From positions 1 to 20,677 of IMG/VR virus record IMGVR_UViG_3300025395_000047: 20,677 bases of DNA. One strand, 5' to 3'. The notes beneath the pieces are model-generated. The model made no database searches, was not told the DNA's origin, and saw only the letters and a list, made by a program, of their open reading frames with translations. Positions 1 through 8,567 of the stretch are shown here, piece by piece. The translations under genes and the position numbers were made by a program. Every line of letters starts with the position of its first letter. Positions within the stretch are counted from its first letter, which is position 1. The DNA comes from a virus.

Positions 1-196
1 CTTGCTCTAATTCCTTAGCTGTGTTTAAGGCTTGCATAAACTGTGGATAAGTATCTCTCCATAAGTATAAAGTTCTAATAGCAAAGCCTAATTCTTTGGC
101 TATTTGCTCTACAGACTTACCCATAGCGCCCAACTCCACGACTTTATCGCAGAATGATTCGTCATAATCAGTTGGTCTACCACCAGGATGTGTCAT
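1..196 (-). CDS. Terminase small subunit, 3' end cut off by window
   Basis: The first 65 residues are in the window. They begin MTHPGGRPTDYDESF and continue with a helix-turn-helix typical of phage small terminases (GKSVEQIAKELGF, then RTLYLWRDTYPQF and an acidic/basic helix). Small terminases bind the packaging site on concatemeric phage DNA and hand it to the large ATPase/nuclease subunit. The start ATG (196-194) overlaps the stop of the upstream gene as ATGA, the junction used throughout this operon. The GRP-x-x-Y-D opening and HTH spacing match families annotated as terminase small subunit. A different HTH regulator cannot be excluded without the C-terminus. The large subunit would be expected just beyond the left edge. 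Confidence 0.75.
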   Translation of the reverse strand, partial: MTHPGGRPTDYDESFCDKVVELGAMGKSVEQIAKELGFAIRTLYLWRDTYPQFMQALNTAKELEQ

Positions 197-825
197 TCTT
201 TACCTTCTTCGTGATAACCAAACTCATAAGGATAACCTTCAGTTGACAATGTTTTGGCAGGTACAGTCTTTTTAAGAATATCGTAATCGCCATCTAAAAC
301 ATTTTCACCATGCCACTTTGCATAATGGTTACTTGTTGTTACCCAATCCCCATGATTGATGTCTTTTATCCCTTTTGGAACTGCTCTATATATTTCAATA
401 GGAGCATAAGGCTTACCTCTAGCTTTTAATGCAGCTATTCTCCATTGAGAATCAATTATTGGGTCACCAATACCATAAAGTCTTTTGCCACTAGCTGAAT
501 AAACATCAGATGGCATAATTTGTGTTAAATCGTGTAAAAAAGCACCGTAATTGTTTGCATTAGGCGCTACATGACTACCTTGATATTCAAGGCTTCCCAC
601 AGGGCTATAAGATGCTGCCATTGACCTACCCAATTCTTGAGTAGCTGGCCCATATTTAAGACCTTCTTGAGCAGCTCGATAAGTAAGATCGTTTAAATCT
701 CTAGCTTGATCGTTTGCATTACCAACTGCTTGTTGAATACTACCAACTGGATTGGAAACAACATCCCCTAGCCTACGTTTAAAGCTATCTATTGAACTAT
801 AAATGTTAGCTAGGGTTGGCATCAT
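193..825 (-). CDS. ADP-ribosyltransferase-like phage protein
   Basis: A 210-residue protein. The N-terminal ~75 residues look helical and polar. The C-terminal ~70 residues resemble the ADP-ribosyltransferase-like (ART) domain found in large polyvalent phage proteins. Visible candidates are an Arg in IYRAVP (R147), the strand GDWVTTS (159-165) followed by YAKWHG (169-173) in place of the S-T-S element, and YEFGY (200-204) near the end in place of the catalytic Glu region. ARTs move ADP-ribose from NAD+ to a protein or nucleic acid; here the target is unknown. ATG at 825 (alternative ATG at 822 with better spacing from AAAGG) overlaps the preceding stop, and its own stop overlaps the small-terminase start as ATGA. 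The fold assignment is inference from motif spacing; enzymatic activity is unproven. Confidence 0.6.
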   Translation of the reverse strand: MMPTLANIYSSIDSFKRRLGDVVSNPVGSIQQAVGNANDQARDLNDLTYRAAQEGLKYGPATQELGRSMAASYSPVGSLEYQGSHVAPNANNYGAFLHDLTQIMPSDVYSASGKRLYGIGDPIIDSQWRIAALKARGKPYAPIEIYRAVPKGIKDINHGDWVTTSNHYAKWHGENVLDGDYDILKKTVPAKTLSTEGYPYEFGYHEEGKE

Positions 826-2675: not shown

Positions 2676-2912
2676 TCAAAATGGAATACTACTATCCTCA
2701 AACTGCTCTTTTGGCTCTTTTGGCTTGGGTACATTTAAATATGCCCAACCATTCCAATGCTCGTCAGTCAAAGGCATAAGGTCTAGTTTTAACATCAATC
2801 CATTTTTAGTATCAATGACCGACCCAATTCTTTGGTATCTGTTCTTTTTCTCACCGTTTGCATTGGTATAAGACCCAACAATTGCGGTCACTTCATATTG
2901 CGTTCTTGACAT
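2676..2912 (-). CDS. Small OB-like protein with SSB-type C-terminal tip
   Basis: A 78-residue protein: a beta-rich body (YEVTAIVGSYTN, then NRYQRIGSVIDTKNG, MLKLDLMPL, WNGWAYLNV) followed by a Pro/Lys/Glu linker and the end FEDSSIPF. The acidic-then-IPF tip is the feature by which single-stranded DNA-binding proteins recruit partner proteins. Similar short phage and plasmid proteins with G.v......K..LPL are known to me, without firm function. It lies directly after the YqaJ exonuclease (20-bp overlap) and has AAGGAG six bases before its ATG. Best read as a minimal single-strand-binding accessory protein of the recombination module; the fold is inferred. Confidence 0.55.
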   Translation of the reverse strand: MSRTQYEVTAIVGSYTNANGEKKNRYQRIGSVIDTKNGLMLKLDLMPLTDEHWNGWAYLNVPKPKEPKEQFEDSSIPF

Positions 2913-3522
2913 TTAAACTCCTTAAAATGTTTACTTTTTCACTAACTTCTAACAAAAACTGTCTAATTTCTTCTTCCAACGACTTGGCATAAAGTTGCTC
3001 TAAGTTCAATCTTTGGATGTAAAGCTGCAAATCTTCAGGCATCCTCGGATCAAAACTTACAAAATCACACCAAGTCCGACCTGTACACAACATCTGCCAC
3101 ACCATTTGAGGCACATATTTGTCAGGAATCTTGTTCTTGACCAATGTGTCAATGTGCGTTGCTGAGTTGGGACACTTGATCTCTATCAATCCATCCCCTG
3201 CAAAGCCGTCAGGAGAAGCCCCAGACATCTCAATCGTTGGATGGTCAATAAACCCTACCTCCTCAACCAAAATTCCCTTGTGAAGCTCATAGGCAGCTCT
3301 AGCAAGTGGCTCTGTCTCAGTACCCCATTGCATCGCAGCGTTGGTAAAACCCTCGCTTGGCTTATTAGTGAGTCTTTCAACCACCAACTGTGCCATATAG
3401 TTCTCACGACTTGCTGAGTACCCTGATTTGGTTTTGGCTATGACATCTGCAACCCTTGAGGCCGTAACTTTGCCTAATCGTTGTAAATGCCAAGCCTCCG
3501 TTCTTTGTTCTACATCACTCAT
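2893..3522 (-). CDS. YqaJ-family viral recombinase exonuclease
   Basis: A 209-residue protein of the YqaJ/lambda-exonuclease group in the PD-(D/E)xK superfamily, which degrades one strand of duplex ends to expose 3' single strands for annealing. Visible motifs: QRTEAWHLQRLGKVTAS (6-22) at the N-terminus, WGTETEPLAR (66-75), SPDG (103-106, catalytic Asp105), EIKCP (114-118, catalytic Glu114 and Lys116) and YVPQMVWQM (136-144), the usual YxxQ...Q helix. Length is normal. ATG at 3522 overlaps the previous stop as ATGA. Its partner here is the ERF annealing protein at 5308-5856; about ten small genes separate the two. Confidence 0.92.
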   Translation of the reverse strand: MSDVEQRTEAWHLQRLGKVTASRVADVIAKTKSGYSASRENYMAQLVVERLTNKPSEGFTNAAMQWGTETEPLARAAYELHKGILVEEVGFIDHPTIEMSGASPDGFAGDGLIEIKCPNSATHIDTLVKNKIPDKYVPQMVWQMLCTGRTWCDFVSFDPRMPEDLQLYIQRLNLEQLYAKSLEEEIRQFLLEVSEKVNILRSLNVKNAI

Positions 3523-5126: not shown

Positions 5127-5311
5127 TTTTCTCTCGCTTTCATCATGGCGTCTGCAAACTCATATGCCGCTTTTGCCGCATCCATTGGATATGCTCTGTT
5201 GTCGGGCATGATTACTGGTAAAGCAAGACCAGCAAACCAGTCTCGCAAATCCATGCCGTTATAACCATCAAATTCTTTATCCCATTTAAATTGAAGTGGA
5301 AATGCTTTCAT
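5123..5311 (-). CDS. Small phage protein, GM-x-LRDWFAG family, 62 aa
   Basis: Begins MKAFPLQFKWDKEFDGY and carries NGMDLRDWFAGLALP and the end AAYEFADAMMKAREK. From memory this is a very common small protein of phages and prophages (GM.LRD.FA..A.......A..AY..ADAML.ARE), function unknown; it is often near recombination or early genes. It is ATGA-coupled on both sides, to ERF upstream and to the CHCC gene downstream. Confidence 0.75.
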   Translation of the reverse strand: MKAFPLQFKWDKEFDGYNGMDLRDWFAGLALPVIMPDNRAYPMDAAKAAYEFADAMMKAREK

Positions 5312-5856
5312 TTGAACTTCGCTTTCATCTCATCTTTGGTTGCAATAATCTTTTTCTGCCATACTGCATCACCTTGAGCTGCTTGGTAAGCGTCTTTGTA
5401 CGCAACCTGTAAATCGTTCACATTGCTCACACTCTTGATGTTGGTAATGTGATCTATCATTACACTCTCATTCACAGTGGTCTTACGCACCGCAGCGTTA
5501 CCATCATCGTCTTCAGGAGCTATCCCACAAGCAGACATTAGCGAATAGCGTCTAGCATAGGTCAGGGCAGACCCAAACCCTTGGGCATCGTGTTTGTTGG
5601 CAGGGATAAATATATCTCCACACTCAAGCATCTCACCACTCTCATGGAGCAATACGGTCTGTACGTTAACTCCAGCATCGTTTGACATTAGTCTTTGAGT
5701 CAAGAAAATACCGTTGTTATTTAACCCATCAATTACCGCCTCAATACACGCAGACAAGTCAGCATAACGTGATTTAAAGTGTGGGTTGGTAGATGTCTTT
5801 AGCGCAGGGCCAAACTCTTTTTGTGCCTTTACCAAGGCCGTTGCTATGTTTTTCAT
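5308..5856 (-). CDS. erf: ERF-family single-strand annealing protein
   Basis: A 182-residue protein of the ERF superfamily (P22 Essential Recombination Function type), which anneals complementary single strands in recombination and circularisation of phage DNA. Visible signature: MKNIATALVKAQKEFG, NPHFKSRYADL (24-34), NGIFLTQRL (48-56), and the core DAQGFGSALTYARRYSL (90-106) followed by GIAPEDDDGN (111-120). The C-terminal ~60 residues are a variable helical tail. Starts with an ATGA overlap. It should work with the YqaJ exonuclease (2893-3522) and perhaps the SSB-like protein (2676-2912) as a phage recombination set. Confidence 0.92.
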   Translation of the reverse strand: MKNIATALVKAQKEFGPALKTSTNPHFKSRYADLSACIEAVIDGLNNNGIFLTQRLMSNDAGVNVQTVLLHESGEMLECGDIFIPANKHDAQGFGSALTYARRYSLMSACGIAPEDDDGNAAVRKTTVNESVMIDHITNIKSVSNVNDLQVAYKDAYQAAQGDAVWQKKIIATKDEMKAKFK

Positions 5857-6521: not shown

Positions 6522-6622
6522 AGGTCACCTGTAGTCATTAGAGCCTGGTTAATTATGTACAAGGGATAAATCATCCCATGCTTCCAATTACTCAAAATCT
6601 GATTGGCTTCAGTCCTTGACAT
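6518..6622 (-). CDS. Very small phage protein, 34 aa, first gene of leftward operon
   Basis: Begins MSRTEANQILSNWKHGM and ends QALMTTGDL. Short phage proteins with this layout (R.EA..IL.......YP...I..AL..TGDL) are common. A strong ribosome-binding site (AAGGAG six bases before ATG) and the ATGA overlap with the next gene support it. As first gene after the divergent control region it starts the leftward early operon. Confidence 0.7.
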   Translation of the reverse strand: MSRTEANQILSNWKHGMIYPLYIINQALMTTGDL

Positions 6623-6663
6623 TGCGTTCTCCTTTTTGTTAACGCAAGTGAATCTTAAATCAT

Positions 6664-6669
6664 TGTCAA
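6664..6669 (-). promoter_or_regulatory. Possible -35 box of leftward early promoter
   Basis: TTGACA on the minus strand, a perfect -35 match, 42 bases before the start of the 34-aa gene. No good -10 lies 16-18 bases downstream (TGCGTT at 17), so this is tentative. An alternative leftward promoter is TTGTAA (6713-6708) with GGTAAT (6691-6686) overlapping the palindrome. Confidence 0.3.
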
Positions 6670-6674
6670 CATAT

Positions 6675-6703
6675 TTGTATTAGGGATTACCCTAATATTA
6701 AAT
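6675..6703 (+). promoter_or_regulatory. Possible rightward early promoter overlapping operator
   Basis: TTGTAT (6675-6680), a 17-base spacer, then TTAAAT (6698-6703). Each box matches four or five of six consensus bases. The spacer is almost exactly the 20-bp palindrome, so a bound repressor would block polymerase. The first rightward gene starts at 6731. Confidence 0.4.
6678..6697. promoter_or_regulatory. Perfect palindromic operator candidate
   Basis: TATTAGGGATTACCCTAATA: two perfect 8-bp half-sites with a 4-bp spacer, in the only divergent intergenic region of the window (6623-6730). This is the expected place and form for a repressor or activator site that sets leftward against rightward early transcription. 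No second copy was seen. Confidence 0.6.
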
Positions 6704-6730
6704 AAATTTACAACACTTTATGATGGAAAA

Positions 6731-6931
6731 ATGGATTACCCAAAATGCTTTCCCAGTTACGAACACTTTAGGAGTTGGGTAGAACTAGCTCGTTTGGCTC
6801 GTGAAGTTGTCTCACCTTGCGATGATTGCAACGTGAAATATCAATTAAAAATGAAAAAGTTGGATTTGTGCGACAGAGATCGTGTGAAAACAATAATTAT
6901 CCGCACCGCTAAAAAAAAAGCTGATGTATAA
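6731..6931 (+). CDS. Small Cys-containing early protein, 66 aa
   Basis: Begins MDYPKCFPSYEHFRSWV, then ARLAREVVSPCDDCNVKYQLKM and LCDRDRVKTI. C30-x2-C33 and C47 make a partial zinc-binding set, a pattern (SPC.DC...Y...M....CD...V) I associate with short phage proteins of unknown function. First gene of the rightward cassette, just after the palindrome; the ribosome-binding site is weak. A run of nine A (6911-6919) lies near the end. DNA binding or regulation is possible but unproven. Confidence 0.65.
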   Translation: MDYPKCFPSYEHFRSWVELARLAREVVSPCDDCNVKYQLKMKKLDLCDRDRVKTIIIRTAKKKADV

Positions 6932-6938
6932 TCCAAAC

Positions 6939-7322
6939 CGTCTGAGTGGCATCGGACGTAGACGCTAATGATAAAACCCCATAGTTTTCTGTGTGGTCTT
7001 GCTAGACAGCAAGCGGAACTTTTGATTAGCGTCATACGTTTTGCTGTTGCTCTCGCCAAGAGCCAAGACCACAGAGTGAATTATGGGGTTTTTGCTTTTG
7101 GACTACACAATGCGGTACGTCGGTGGTTGTGTACGAGATACCCTGAAACACGAGCAAACCAGATCAGGGAACGTGGGCGAATTGCTAGAGCGTGGTGGTT
7201 GAAAATAGTCTGGCATAGTGCAATGCGATGACGTGGCTCCGAAAAGCACCCATCAAGGCATAGAGCGAAACTCGTTTTGGTACGGTTAGGCTATGCTTTG
7301 CTCAAACGTTCACCAAAAAGCA
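6939..7322 (+). ncRNA. Candidate large structured RNA, two domains with pseudoknot
   Basis: The 419-bp gap 6932-7350 holds no convincing gene but folds densely. Hairpin 6939-6945/6952-6958. Domain I: long stem 6973-7001/7064-7092 (27 of 29 positions pair), inner stems 7005-7012/7041-7048 and 7049-7053/7059-7063, and GACGCTAAT (6961-6969) pairing perfectly with the inner loop ATTAGCGTC (7025-7033) as a pseudoknot; TTTTT follows. Domain II: closing stem 7093-7101/7313-7322 (one bulge) around 7104-7110/7127-7133, 7141-7146/7164-7169, 7233-7238/7245-7249 and 7254-7263/7291-7300. At least five pairs are G-U on the plus strand and would be A-C mismatches on the minus strand, so the RNA is most likely plus-sense. 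It resembles no class I can name; a replication-origin structure is the main alternative. Confidence 0.55.
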
Positions 7323-7326
7323 CCAT

Positions 7327-7335
7327 TGTGGATAA
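7327..7335 (-). promoter_or_regulatory. Consensus DnaA-box-like 9-mer
   Basis: TGTGGATAA, a perfect complement of the DnaA box TTATCCACA, lies between the structured region and the gene before the replication-type protein. One box is weak evidence for an origin, and the same 9-mer occurs by chance inside genes of this window (for example 42-50). Confidence 0.3.
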
Positions 7336-7350
7336 CTTTAAGGACTAATT

Positions 7351-7539
7351 ATGAGGTTATGTAGTTGTGGAGGAATTGTCAAACAACATGAAGTCAAAGC
7401 AGGACAAGTTTGGAATTGTGAAAGTTGTGGCAAGTATGAAGTCATTAAGGAAAAAGAATGTTATTTGAATCAGGATTTGATAGATTTTGGAACGCTTGGC
7501 CTAAGTCACCTAGAAAAGGGGGCAAATCAAAATGCCTAG
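7351..7539 (+). CDS. Small zinc-ribbon protein
   Basis: A 62-residue protein beginning MRLCSCGGIVKQHEV. C4-x-C6-GG and C23-x2-C26-G (NCESCGKYE) form a classic zinc ribbon; short phage proteins with 'C.CGG.v..H......W.C..CG.YE' are familiar. AAGGA lies upstream of the ATG. The last ~27 residues (from about Glu36) are read over the start of the next gene (82-bp overlap), so that part may be non-functional or the overlap may be real. Probably nucleic-acid or protein binding; function unknown. Confidence 0.65.
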   Translation: MRLCSCGGIVKQHEVKAGQVWNCESCGKYEVIKEKECYLNQDLIDFGTLGLSHLEKGANQNA

Positions 7540-7823
7540 CGATCTGGGCTAAAAGCTATTGTGAGTCGTGTTGCGATCAGATCATCAAGCACGTTGAGTG
7601 GATGAAAACAACCGATCAATGGCGCAAGGATAACGGTGCGTTTATACCTGCTCCAAGCGTTTATTTGAACCAACAACGATGGGATGGTGCAGAAGTTCCT
7701 GAAATCGCCCCAAAAGTCCCAGAAAACACCTTCTTAAAGGCTTTAGAGGAGCACTCCAAACAAGTTGTGCCTATGCCTGAAGAAATCAAAGCTAAATTAC
7801 AAGCATTAAGGATGGGTAAATGA
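7458..7823 (+). CDS. Replication-protein C-terminal-type phage protein
   Basis: A 121-residue protein. FDRFWNAWPKSPRKGGKSKCLAIW, then IIKHVEWMKTTDQW and the signature GAFIPAPSVYLNQQRWDGAE match the C-terminal module found in many phage replication initiators/helicase loaders (F..FW..YPRK..K..A..AW..........G.FIP.P..WLNQ.RWED). Here the module stands alone, without the usual N-terminal winged helix, so it may be a small helicase-loader-like protein or a relic. The start at 7458 has AAGGA eight bases upstream. Its stop overlaps the methyltransferase start as ATGA. Confidence 0.7.
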   Translation: MLFESGFDRFWNAWPKSPRKGGKSKCLAIWAKSYCESCCDQIIKHVEWMKTTDQWRKDNGAFIPAPSVYLNQQRWDGAEVPEIAPKVPENTFLKALEEHSKQVVPMPEEIKAKLQALRMGK

Positions 7824-8560
7824 ATGAGTTGGCTCTTTTCGCAGGCGCTGGTGGAGGAATACTTGGGGGACATTTGCTCGGATGGCGAACAGTCTGTGCA
7901 GTCGAATGGGAAGCCTATCCAGGAAGCGTATTGTGCGCCCGACAAAATGACGGTCTTCTCCCGCCTTTCCCGATTTGGGATGACGTTAAAACCTTTGACG
8001 GAAGACCGTGGAGAGGAATTGTTGACGTTGTTTCGGGAGGATTTCCATGCCAAGACATCTCAGCAGCAGGAAAAGGCGCAGGAATTGACGGAGAACGATC
8101 AGGAATGTGGGGACAAATGGCTCGCATCATTCACGAGGTACGACCAAAGCACGTCTTTGTGGAAAACTCACCAATGCTCACTTCTAGGGGGCTTGGACGA
8201 GTTCTTGGAGACTTGGCCTCAATGGGGTTTAATGCGAGATGGGGAGTGTTGGGAGCAGGTGACATTGGAGCGCCACATCAGAGAGATAGAATTTGGATTG
8301 TCGCAAAAGAAGTGGCCCACACCAGTTTGCCAGGATTCAAGACACGCAATCAGCAGACATCTAGACCCGACCAACCAACATTGGAAAAGCAATCTTGGAG
8401 AAGTGGTGATGAGCTTAGAGCCAACTACGGATGGCCGGTTGAACCCAACGTGGGTCGAGTGGTTAATGGGATGGCCTCTAGAGTGGACAGACTTAAAGCC
8501 ATTGGCAATGGACAAGTTCCTAGAGTGGCAGCAGTTGCATGGAATATACTCTCAGAATGA
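7820..8560 (+). CDS. DNA cytosine-5 methyltransferase (orphan, phage)
   Basis: A 246-residue C5 methyltransferase that transfers a methyl group from S-adenosylmethionine to cytosine in DNA. Motif I is LALFAGAGGGILGG (4-17), motif IV GGFPCQDIS (73-81, catalytic Cys77), motif VI VENSP (114-118), motif VIII GAPHQRDRIWIVA (150-162) and motif X RLKAIGNGQVPRVAA (224-238). The target-recognition region (~165-215) is short, so this is a minimal enzyme, close to family members I know from phages. No restriction partner is nearby; it probably protects phage DNA or marks its own sites. ATGA overlap with the previous gene. The same DNA also carries a second long frame (7824-8567). Confidence 0.93.
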   Translation: MNELALFAGAGGGILGGHLLGWRTVCAVEWEAYPGSVLCARQNDGLLPPFPIWDDVKTFDGRPWRGIVDVVSGGFPCQDISAAGKGAGIDGERSGMWGQMARIIHEVRPKHVFVENSPMLTSRGLGRVLGDLASMGFNARWGVLGAGDIGAPHQRDRIWIVAKEVAHTSLPGFKTRNQQTSRPDQPTLEKQSWRSGDELRANYGWPVEPNVGRVVNGMASRVDRLKAIGNGQVPRVAAVAWNILSE

Positions 8561-8567
8561 TGTTTGA
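7824..8567 (+). CDS. Overprinted ORF in +1 frame of the methyltransferase gene
   Basis: An open frame of 247 codons, starting 4 bases after the methyltransferase start and ending 7 bases after its stop. Its product has features I associate with separate phage proteins near or derived from C5 methyltransferases: GEELLTLFREDFHAKTS (63-79), EKAQELTEN (83-91), SLWKTHQCSLLGGL (111-124), WPTPVCQDS (164-172) and LNPTWVEWLMGWPLEWTDL (206-224), the last typical of target-recognition ends of this enzyme group. A random frame of this length with such matches is unlikely. It could be a real second protein, a remnant of a frame switch in the enzyme, or a frame kept open by the codon use of the first. Translation could begin at the tandem ATGs after AAGGATGGG. 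Confidence 0.5.
   Translation: MSWLFSQALVEEYLGDICSDGEQSVQSNGKPIQEAYCAPDKMTVFSRLSRFGMTLKPLTEDRGEELLTLFREDFHAKTSQQQEKAQELTENDQECGDKWLASFTRYDQSTSLWKTHQCSLLGGLDEFLETWPQWGLMRDGECWEQVTLERHIREIEFGLSQKKWPTPVCQDSRHAISRHLDPTNQHWKSNLGEVVMSLEPTTDGRLNPTWVEWLMGWPLEWTDLKPLAMDKFLEWQQLHGIYSQNDV

Follow-up and report, generated by a model that had tools for sequence, protein, structure and literature searches.

A pseudoknotted noncoding RNA built of two exchangeable domains and often found next to a replication gene in uncultured phages

The CI RNA of phage P4 and the C4 RNA of phage P1 are structured molecules that include a terminator-like element, lie near phage replication genes, and recognize an element in the transcript of a competing phage. 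The RNAs of type III toxin-antitoxin systems (ToxI-like) consist of an H-type pseudoknot flanked by short direct repeats. In ColE1, the contact between RNA II and its template is of the G-rich/C-rich kind. RNA II is a noncoding RNA whose promoter is located 550 bp upstream and whose persistent hybrid opens and primes the origin (PMC5043065). The large phage RNA known as GOLLD includes one conserved part, the 3′ region, and one variable part (PMC12286853).

The window analyzed in this study, a stretch of 20,677 nucleotides, is a phage fragment found in IMG/VR as a 20.7-kb virus record. A conserved region, 6924-7325, occupies a gap between two of its genes and corresponds to a folded RNA of approximately 390 nt. 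The comparisons described below make it nearly certain that this region specifies a structured noncoding RNA of that size, with its own σ70-type promoter and two exchangeable domains (D1 at the 5′ side and D2 at the 3′ side), in uncultured phages that, judging from the sources of the contigs, are mainly from freshwater. A first-pass annotation of the window had proposed a two-domain structured RNA of no known class, and this proposal was supported: there is no match in Rfam, and the domains are separable, each being found with alternative partners.

The replication protein encoded next to the RNA was used as a query to fetch 80 viral loci, many of which contain 6924-7322 at approximately 75-82% nucleotide identity. 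A scan of viral contigs with a motif from the P4 region, which includes the sequence of hairpin P4 (see below), produced at least 120 matches, and scans with the 3′ domains added further loci. A recognized D1, or a 3′ domain of type A (the one present in the window) or type B, was found in at least 325 viral loci, a lower bound for the abundance in viral collections; IMG/VR contigs may be incomplete. DNA searches of GenBank phages produced chance matches only or none, and those of PLSDB plasmids no real match to the unit. When 84,980 bacterial and archaeal genomes were scanned with one motif (P4 region), the five matches were due to chance and none had the RNA around it. None of the Rfam 15 covariance models (including GOLLD, ROOL, C4, and group I and II introns) matched the window at the gathering threshold, the same was true for ten related loci covering 3′ domains of types A, B, C, and D, and permissive scans gave chance-level matches only. 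Readings as a group I intron or an HDV-like element, suggested by motifs, were dropped because their defining elements are missing and there were no Rfam matches. In MW202484, the closest named relative according to the replication protein, annotated genes occupy the place expected for the RNA directly upstream of that gene. The absence from GenBank phages, plasmids, and Rfam fits a host range among uncultured bacteria. Apparently, the RNA is missing from catalogues because none of the cultured phages in the collection searched has it.

The elements of D1 in the window are as follows.

6927-6932, plus strand: -10 box TATAAT, which shares bases with the stop codon of ORF 6731-6931 upstream, with no clear -35 in the window copy
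6939-6945/6952-6958, plus strand: 5′ hairpin HP1, loop GTGGCA
6961-6969, plus strand: pseudoknot strand, GACGCTAAT
6973-7001, plus strand: long stem P2, 5′ strand
7025-7033, plus strand: partner strand of the pseudoknot, ATTAGCGTC, in the apical part of P2
7049-7063, plus strand: hairpin P4 (GCTCT-CGCCA-AGAGC)
7064-7092, plus strand: long stem P2, 3′ strand
7085-7101, plus strand: P2 base and U-rich tract, GGGGTTTTTGCTTTTGG, predicted to be intrinsic-terminator-like, at the D1/D2 junction

In the nonredundant set of copies with flanks, most copies (52) have a -10-like hexamer whose first base lies 12 nt ahead of HP1, and the hexamer at that place is TATAAT in 36 and TATACT in 12. A score of at least 9/12 against the σ70 consensus was reached by 59% of the copies, compared with 2.2% of positions drawn at random from those loci. 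The assignment of the RNA to the plus strand, already made in the first-pass annotation, agrees with this conserved upstream promoter and with the fold energies, which compared better with shuffles on the plus strand (z = -2.84) than on the minus strand (z = -1.85).

The pairing of 27 of the 29 positions of P2 was confirmed (25 Watson-Crick and 2 G-T pairs), and 25 shuffles of the region that approximately preserved its dinucleotides gave a best 29-nt pairing of 21-24. The perfect 9-bp match between 6961-6969 and 7025-7033 was also re-derived from the sequence. Covariation was measured on sequence-based alignments (MAFFT) by an APC-corrected G-test against null alignments that preserve the tree and the substitution counts, a home-made, R-scape-like procedure with 20-40 replicates. 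The named helices showed 90-100% paired cells, compared with 5-71% in slid versions. HP1 is paired in 99% of cells, with double changes in two pairs and a mean pairwise identity of 90%, and P4 is nearly invariant (100% paired, 99% identity). In the long stem, covariation exceeds all nulls at 6981/7084 and 6985/7080, and in the pseudoknot (94% paired, compensatory changes in 8 of 9 pairs) 6963-6967/7027-7031 covary above every null score. Stem and pseudoknot thus both exceed every null simulation in their covariation across homologues, which places the pairings far beyond chance, as had been suspected from their number and length in one gene-free gap; the homologues show the compensatory changes that a structured RNA predicts.

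The pseudoknot strand is at the same time the most variable element of D1, with 50-54% identity compared with 73-99% elsewhere and 56 distinct strands in 63 sequences. The two strands match over a mean of 9.5 nt within their own phage and over 4.6 nt when one of them is replaced by that of another phage. Across D1 families, the base of the stem is repeatedly GC-rich and leads into a U-tract; a simple terminator scanner was silent at 7085-7101 because its loop limit is 8 nt.

The elements of D2, type A in the window, are listed next.

7105-7110/7127-7132, plus strand: helix, 96% paired, compensatory changes in 5 of 6 pairs; 7106-7109/7128-7131 covary (E 0 to 0.025)
7141-7145/7165-7169, plus strand: helix, 100% paired, compensatory changes in 4 of 5 pairs; 7144/7166 above all nulls
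7171-7173/7191-7193, plus strand: helix, 99% paired; 7171/7193 and 7172/7192 above all nulls
7183-7185/7213-7215, plus strand: helix crossing the previous one; 7183/7215 and 7184/7214 covary (E approximately 0.025)
7242-7250, plus strand: E2, internal copy of the 3′-terminal segment of the RNA, AAAAGCACC, matching E3
7258-7262/7292-7296 and 7263-7269/7297-7303, plus strand: putative H-type pseudoknot between E2 and E3, 92% and 98% paired
7316-7324, plus strand: E3, 3′ end of the conserved RNA, AAAAGCACC, directly after CACCA

The existence of D2 as a structured domain was borne out by five helices that covary or pair consistently, in a plan that differs from the one first drawn. The helix 7093-7101/7313-7322, thought to close the domain, was rejected: over 8 bp, 78% of its cells are paired, the version slid by one column reaches 76% with no fewer compensatory changes, and the two are not separable. 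From its pairing pattern, 7258-7303 probably forms an H-type pseudoknot, in which two pairs of the first helix and none of the second show compensatory changes.

In type A the last 8 or so nucleotides of the RNA (E3) repeat the internal E2 exactly, at a spacing of 71-75 nt, and are hypervariable between phages; beyond E3 the sequences are unrelated. In 53 of 59 sequences, compared with 7% of swapped pairs, at least 7 nt are common to E2 and E3, and the shared run has a mean length of 7.7 nt within a phage and 4.2 nt after swapping. In the joint alignment, 7244/7318 and 7247/7321 are identical by covariation above all nulls. A complement of E2/E3 was sought in the transcript and in nine near-complete-sized genomes, and none was found at a consistent place; the U-tract at 7089-7099 was rejected as a partner since it fits common variants only. 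A general function of E3 as a Shine-Dalgarno site was also rejected, as only 24 of the 59 type A sequences have a start codon at a suitable distance (the ATG of an ORF of at least 40 aa, 11-22 nt after CACCA). Type C, unrelated in sequence, includes a constant 9-nt direct repeat, AACTAGCAT, at 75-77 nt spacing, and no matched hypervariable pair resembling E2/E3 was found in type B. Over the 80 nt that follow E3, the purine fraction falls from 0.72 to 0.62 and the GC skew from 0.40 to 0.26, the values inside the RNA being 0.53 and 0.17.

At least five sequence families of D1 share one plan: promoter, pseudoknot strand, long stem with the partner strand in its loop, and U-tract. Among the loci collected, family alpha has 187 members, beta, a loose cluster, 103, and gamma and delta 9 each; the two singletons are L231 and L269, of which L269 looks similar to beta by eye. 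The beta D1 has its own covarying stem and its own matched variable contact, with runs of at least 6 nt in 72% of own and 12% of swapped pairs. The 3′ domains belong to types A, B, C, and D, which are mixed freely with D1: alpha was found combined with all four, and beta with A and B. Type B has covarying helices of its own. Type C (L107, L116, L185, and others; approximately 360 nt after D1) is a larger conserved element with few diverse copies. In the gamma group, direct reading of the sequences showed an intrinsic terminator-like hairpin that precedes and overlaps the promoter. Elsewhere in the window, on the minus strand, a YqaJ-type exonuclease (2893-3522) and an Erf annealing protein (5308-5856) form a phage recombination pair, which may help domain shuffling.

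The gene that follows the RNA in the window is the following.

7458-7823, plus strand: replication-initiation-like gene, neighbor of the RNA and outside it (phrog_9474, E = 2e-14)

The phrog_9474 match covers only the C-terminal part of the profile (177-255 of 288). The early description of the RNA as part of an early operon, before a replication-type gene, was correct for the window, where 7458-7820 matches replication-initiation PHROGs. Across the 304 units that could be placed, a count that includes near-identical contigs and is not fully dereplicated, 253 are found just before the replication gene (median distance 97 nt), 12 just after it (49-246 nt), and 39 elsewhere. A leader acting in cis would always precede the replication gene on the same transcript; since 12 units come after this gene and another 39 lack one in their vicinity, the RNA is not simply the leader of the replication gene. 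Some of the 39 remote units precede a capsid gene, with a fresh promoter-like site between unit and gene. In L220, L249, and L213 a promoter-like site and then a conserved leader, possibly a further structured RNA, lie between a gamma/type A unit and the capsid gene. Within 6600-7460 one promoter-like site was detected; it is on the plus strand and not part of the RNA. Among twelve near-complete-sized genomes, only some have a GC-skew minimum within approximately 1 kb of the RNA, in a comparison that is confounded by gene orientation. After the replication gene, two long plus-strand ORFs in different frames, 7820-8560 and 7824-8567, overlap almost completely; their products are a C-5 cytosine methylase (PF00145, phrog_363) and a 247-aa protein matching DNA-methyltransferase phrog_1008 (E = 2e-24). 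This overlap looks like true dual coding because it is kept in 55 of the 61 related loci that have both. A 210-aa protein encoded at 193-825, minus strand, matches a ParB C-terminal domain (phrog_2579).

We tentatively propose that the RNA acts in cis as a transcription-coupled replication RNA (R-loop or pre-primer). The nascent transcript would work at the replication locus, where D1 would fold first and its pseudoknot-locked, terminator-like long hairpin would gate or slow elongation. D2 would fold next and present E2 which, because its sequence is that of the RNA's own 3′ edge, could hybridize to the template strand of the DNA at E3 or exchange places with E3. The RNA-DNA hybrid would anchor the transcript in the purine-rich stretch downstream of E3, open the duplex, and prime or nucleate replication, with help from the short, initiator-like product of the neighboring gene, in which the N-terminal part of the PHROG profile is missing. 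Pairing to the template at E3 would explain the concerted evolution of E2 and E3, for which no complementary partner was found in the transcript or at a consistent place in nine genomes. The proposal also fits the 265 of 304 placeable units that lie immediately to one side or the other of the replication gene, the similar spacing of the repeats in types C and A, the purine-rich, G-skewed flank after E3, and an initiator whose profile match is confined to the C-terminal third. Against it stand the 39 units away from the replication gene, the lack of a matched hypervariable pair in type B, the mixed GC skew, and the ribosome-binding site that E3 or its surroundings often provide; the purine-rich flank may simply be ribosome-binding sequence, and no antisense counterpart of RNA I was noted. 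The full version of the idea is more doubtful still: a modular, pseudoknot-gated nascent RNA would make an R-loop origin via its copied 3′ edge, replacing the DNA-binding half of the initiator, and its self-matching sequences would diversify rapidly between phages.

An equally tentative reading is that the unit is a portable, structured untranslated leader of whichever operon follows. D1 would then be a pseudoknot-controlled attenuator and D2 would control ribosome access to the first gene, with E3 often serving as a Shine-Dalgarno sequence. The promoter followed by a terminator-like hairpin and U-tract is what such a leader would have, the next gene starts nearby, E3 or the end of type B is often a ribosome-binding site, and the large majority of units (253/304) precede the replication gene. 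However, the units that follow this gene or precede other genes, the fresh promoter-like site before the gene after capsid-side copies, and the many type A copies, the majority, with no start codon at ribosome distance of E3 argue against a leader, which also leaves the need for E2 to equal E3 unexplained. Somewhat less probable is a trans-acting, stand-alone folded particle that works like GOLLD or ROOL. It might form oligomers or act as a decoy for some factor of the host, and its hypervariable pseudoknot and repeat would make assembly self-specific or allow escape. Self-assembly is known for large RNAs of phages (PMC12286853), and the RNA described here has its own promoter, an elaborate pseudoknotted fold, several genomic contexts, and contacts that are hypervariable yet matched. 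Its strong tie to the replication gene and the lack of matches to the GOLLD and ROOL models speak against a particle, and no terminator of its own was seen after D2. A leader accounts for the ribosome-binding sites but not for the repeat, and a particle for the mobility but not for the locus; the three readings are therefore nearly equal in probability, the replication RNA having a slight lead.

Two other explanations carry much less weight. In RNA-based immunity or copy control, D1 would be processed into a small RNA whose hypervariable strand recognizes the same element in the transcript of a competing phage. The diversity of the pseudoknot strands within otherwise conserved surroundings and the terminator-like 3′ end of D1 agree with this improbable reading, but the pseudoknot pairing is satisfied inside one molecule and Rfam gave no C4 match. 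Moreover, lysogeny is not indicated, because searches of the longest relatives gave no phage integrase (PF00589) in 18 records of mostly near-complete size and no repressor HTH (PF01381) over the cut-off in 16, all of them possibly incomplete; the records searched thus gave no sign of a temperate phage with lysogenic control. That the region is not an RNA at all, its repeats acting as DNA (origin iterons or a cruciform) or its sequence encoding a peptide, is very improbable. The repeats are visible in DNA too, and ORFs of 87 aa (plus strand) and 72 aa (minus strand) cross the region. Coding by 6968-7231 (plus) and by the 6901-7059 part of the minus-strand ORF was rejected, as neither has a Pfam or PHROG match and most homologues have disrupted frames, with an internal stop in the homologous start frame in 46 of 61 and a length difference that is not a multiple of three in 39 of 61. 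The region is therefore not translated as a conserved protein, and the G-U pairs, the covariation of several helices with conserved loops, and the fixed promoter point to an RNA.

We know of no described RNA class that combines exchangeable domains of the same plan and unrelated sequence, matched hypervariable contacts, and a self-copying 3′ edge. The putative H-type pseudoknot flanked by the short direct repeats E2 and E3 resembles a ToxI-like RNA; unlike that system, there is a single unit, no toxin gene was seen next to the RNA in the window, and the repeats are hypervariable between phages. The P4 CI and P1 C4 RNAs differ in that the RNA described here has no lysogeny genes found with it, no C4 match, and a much larger second domain. 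With GOLLD and ROOL it shares the character of a large pseudoknotted phage RNA of unassigned role, and with GOLLD also the combination of a conserved and a variable part, but it is shorter (approximately 390-560 nt), is located by a replication gene rather than in tRNA islands, has two domains that are both exchangeable, and does not match their covariance models. It is a widespread, strongly covarying, previously uncatalogued RNA of common freshwater phages, and if it were a leader or a particle it would still be a new class for structural work.

RNA II of ColE1/pMB1 differs from the RNA described here, which is phage-borne, adjoins an initiator-like gene, and has another fold, and for which a hybrid is proposed. 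No counterpart of the antisense RNA I was noted beside it; the one promoter-like site detected within 6600-7460 is on the plus strand. Like RNA II, it would be a structured noncoding transcript of several hundred nucleotides with its own promoter at a replication locus, and close to its 3′ edge the template could be matched by an internal stretch of the RNA in type A (E2 = E3) and in type C (its repeat), though not in type B. A role in replication, if true, would make it a non-plasmid example of RNA-opened origins.
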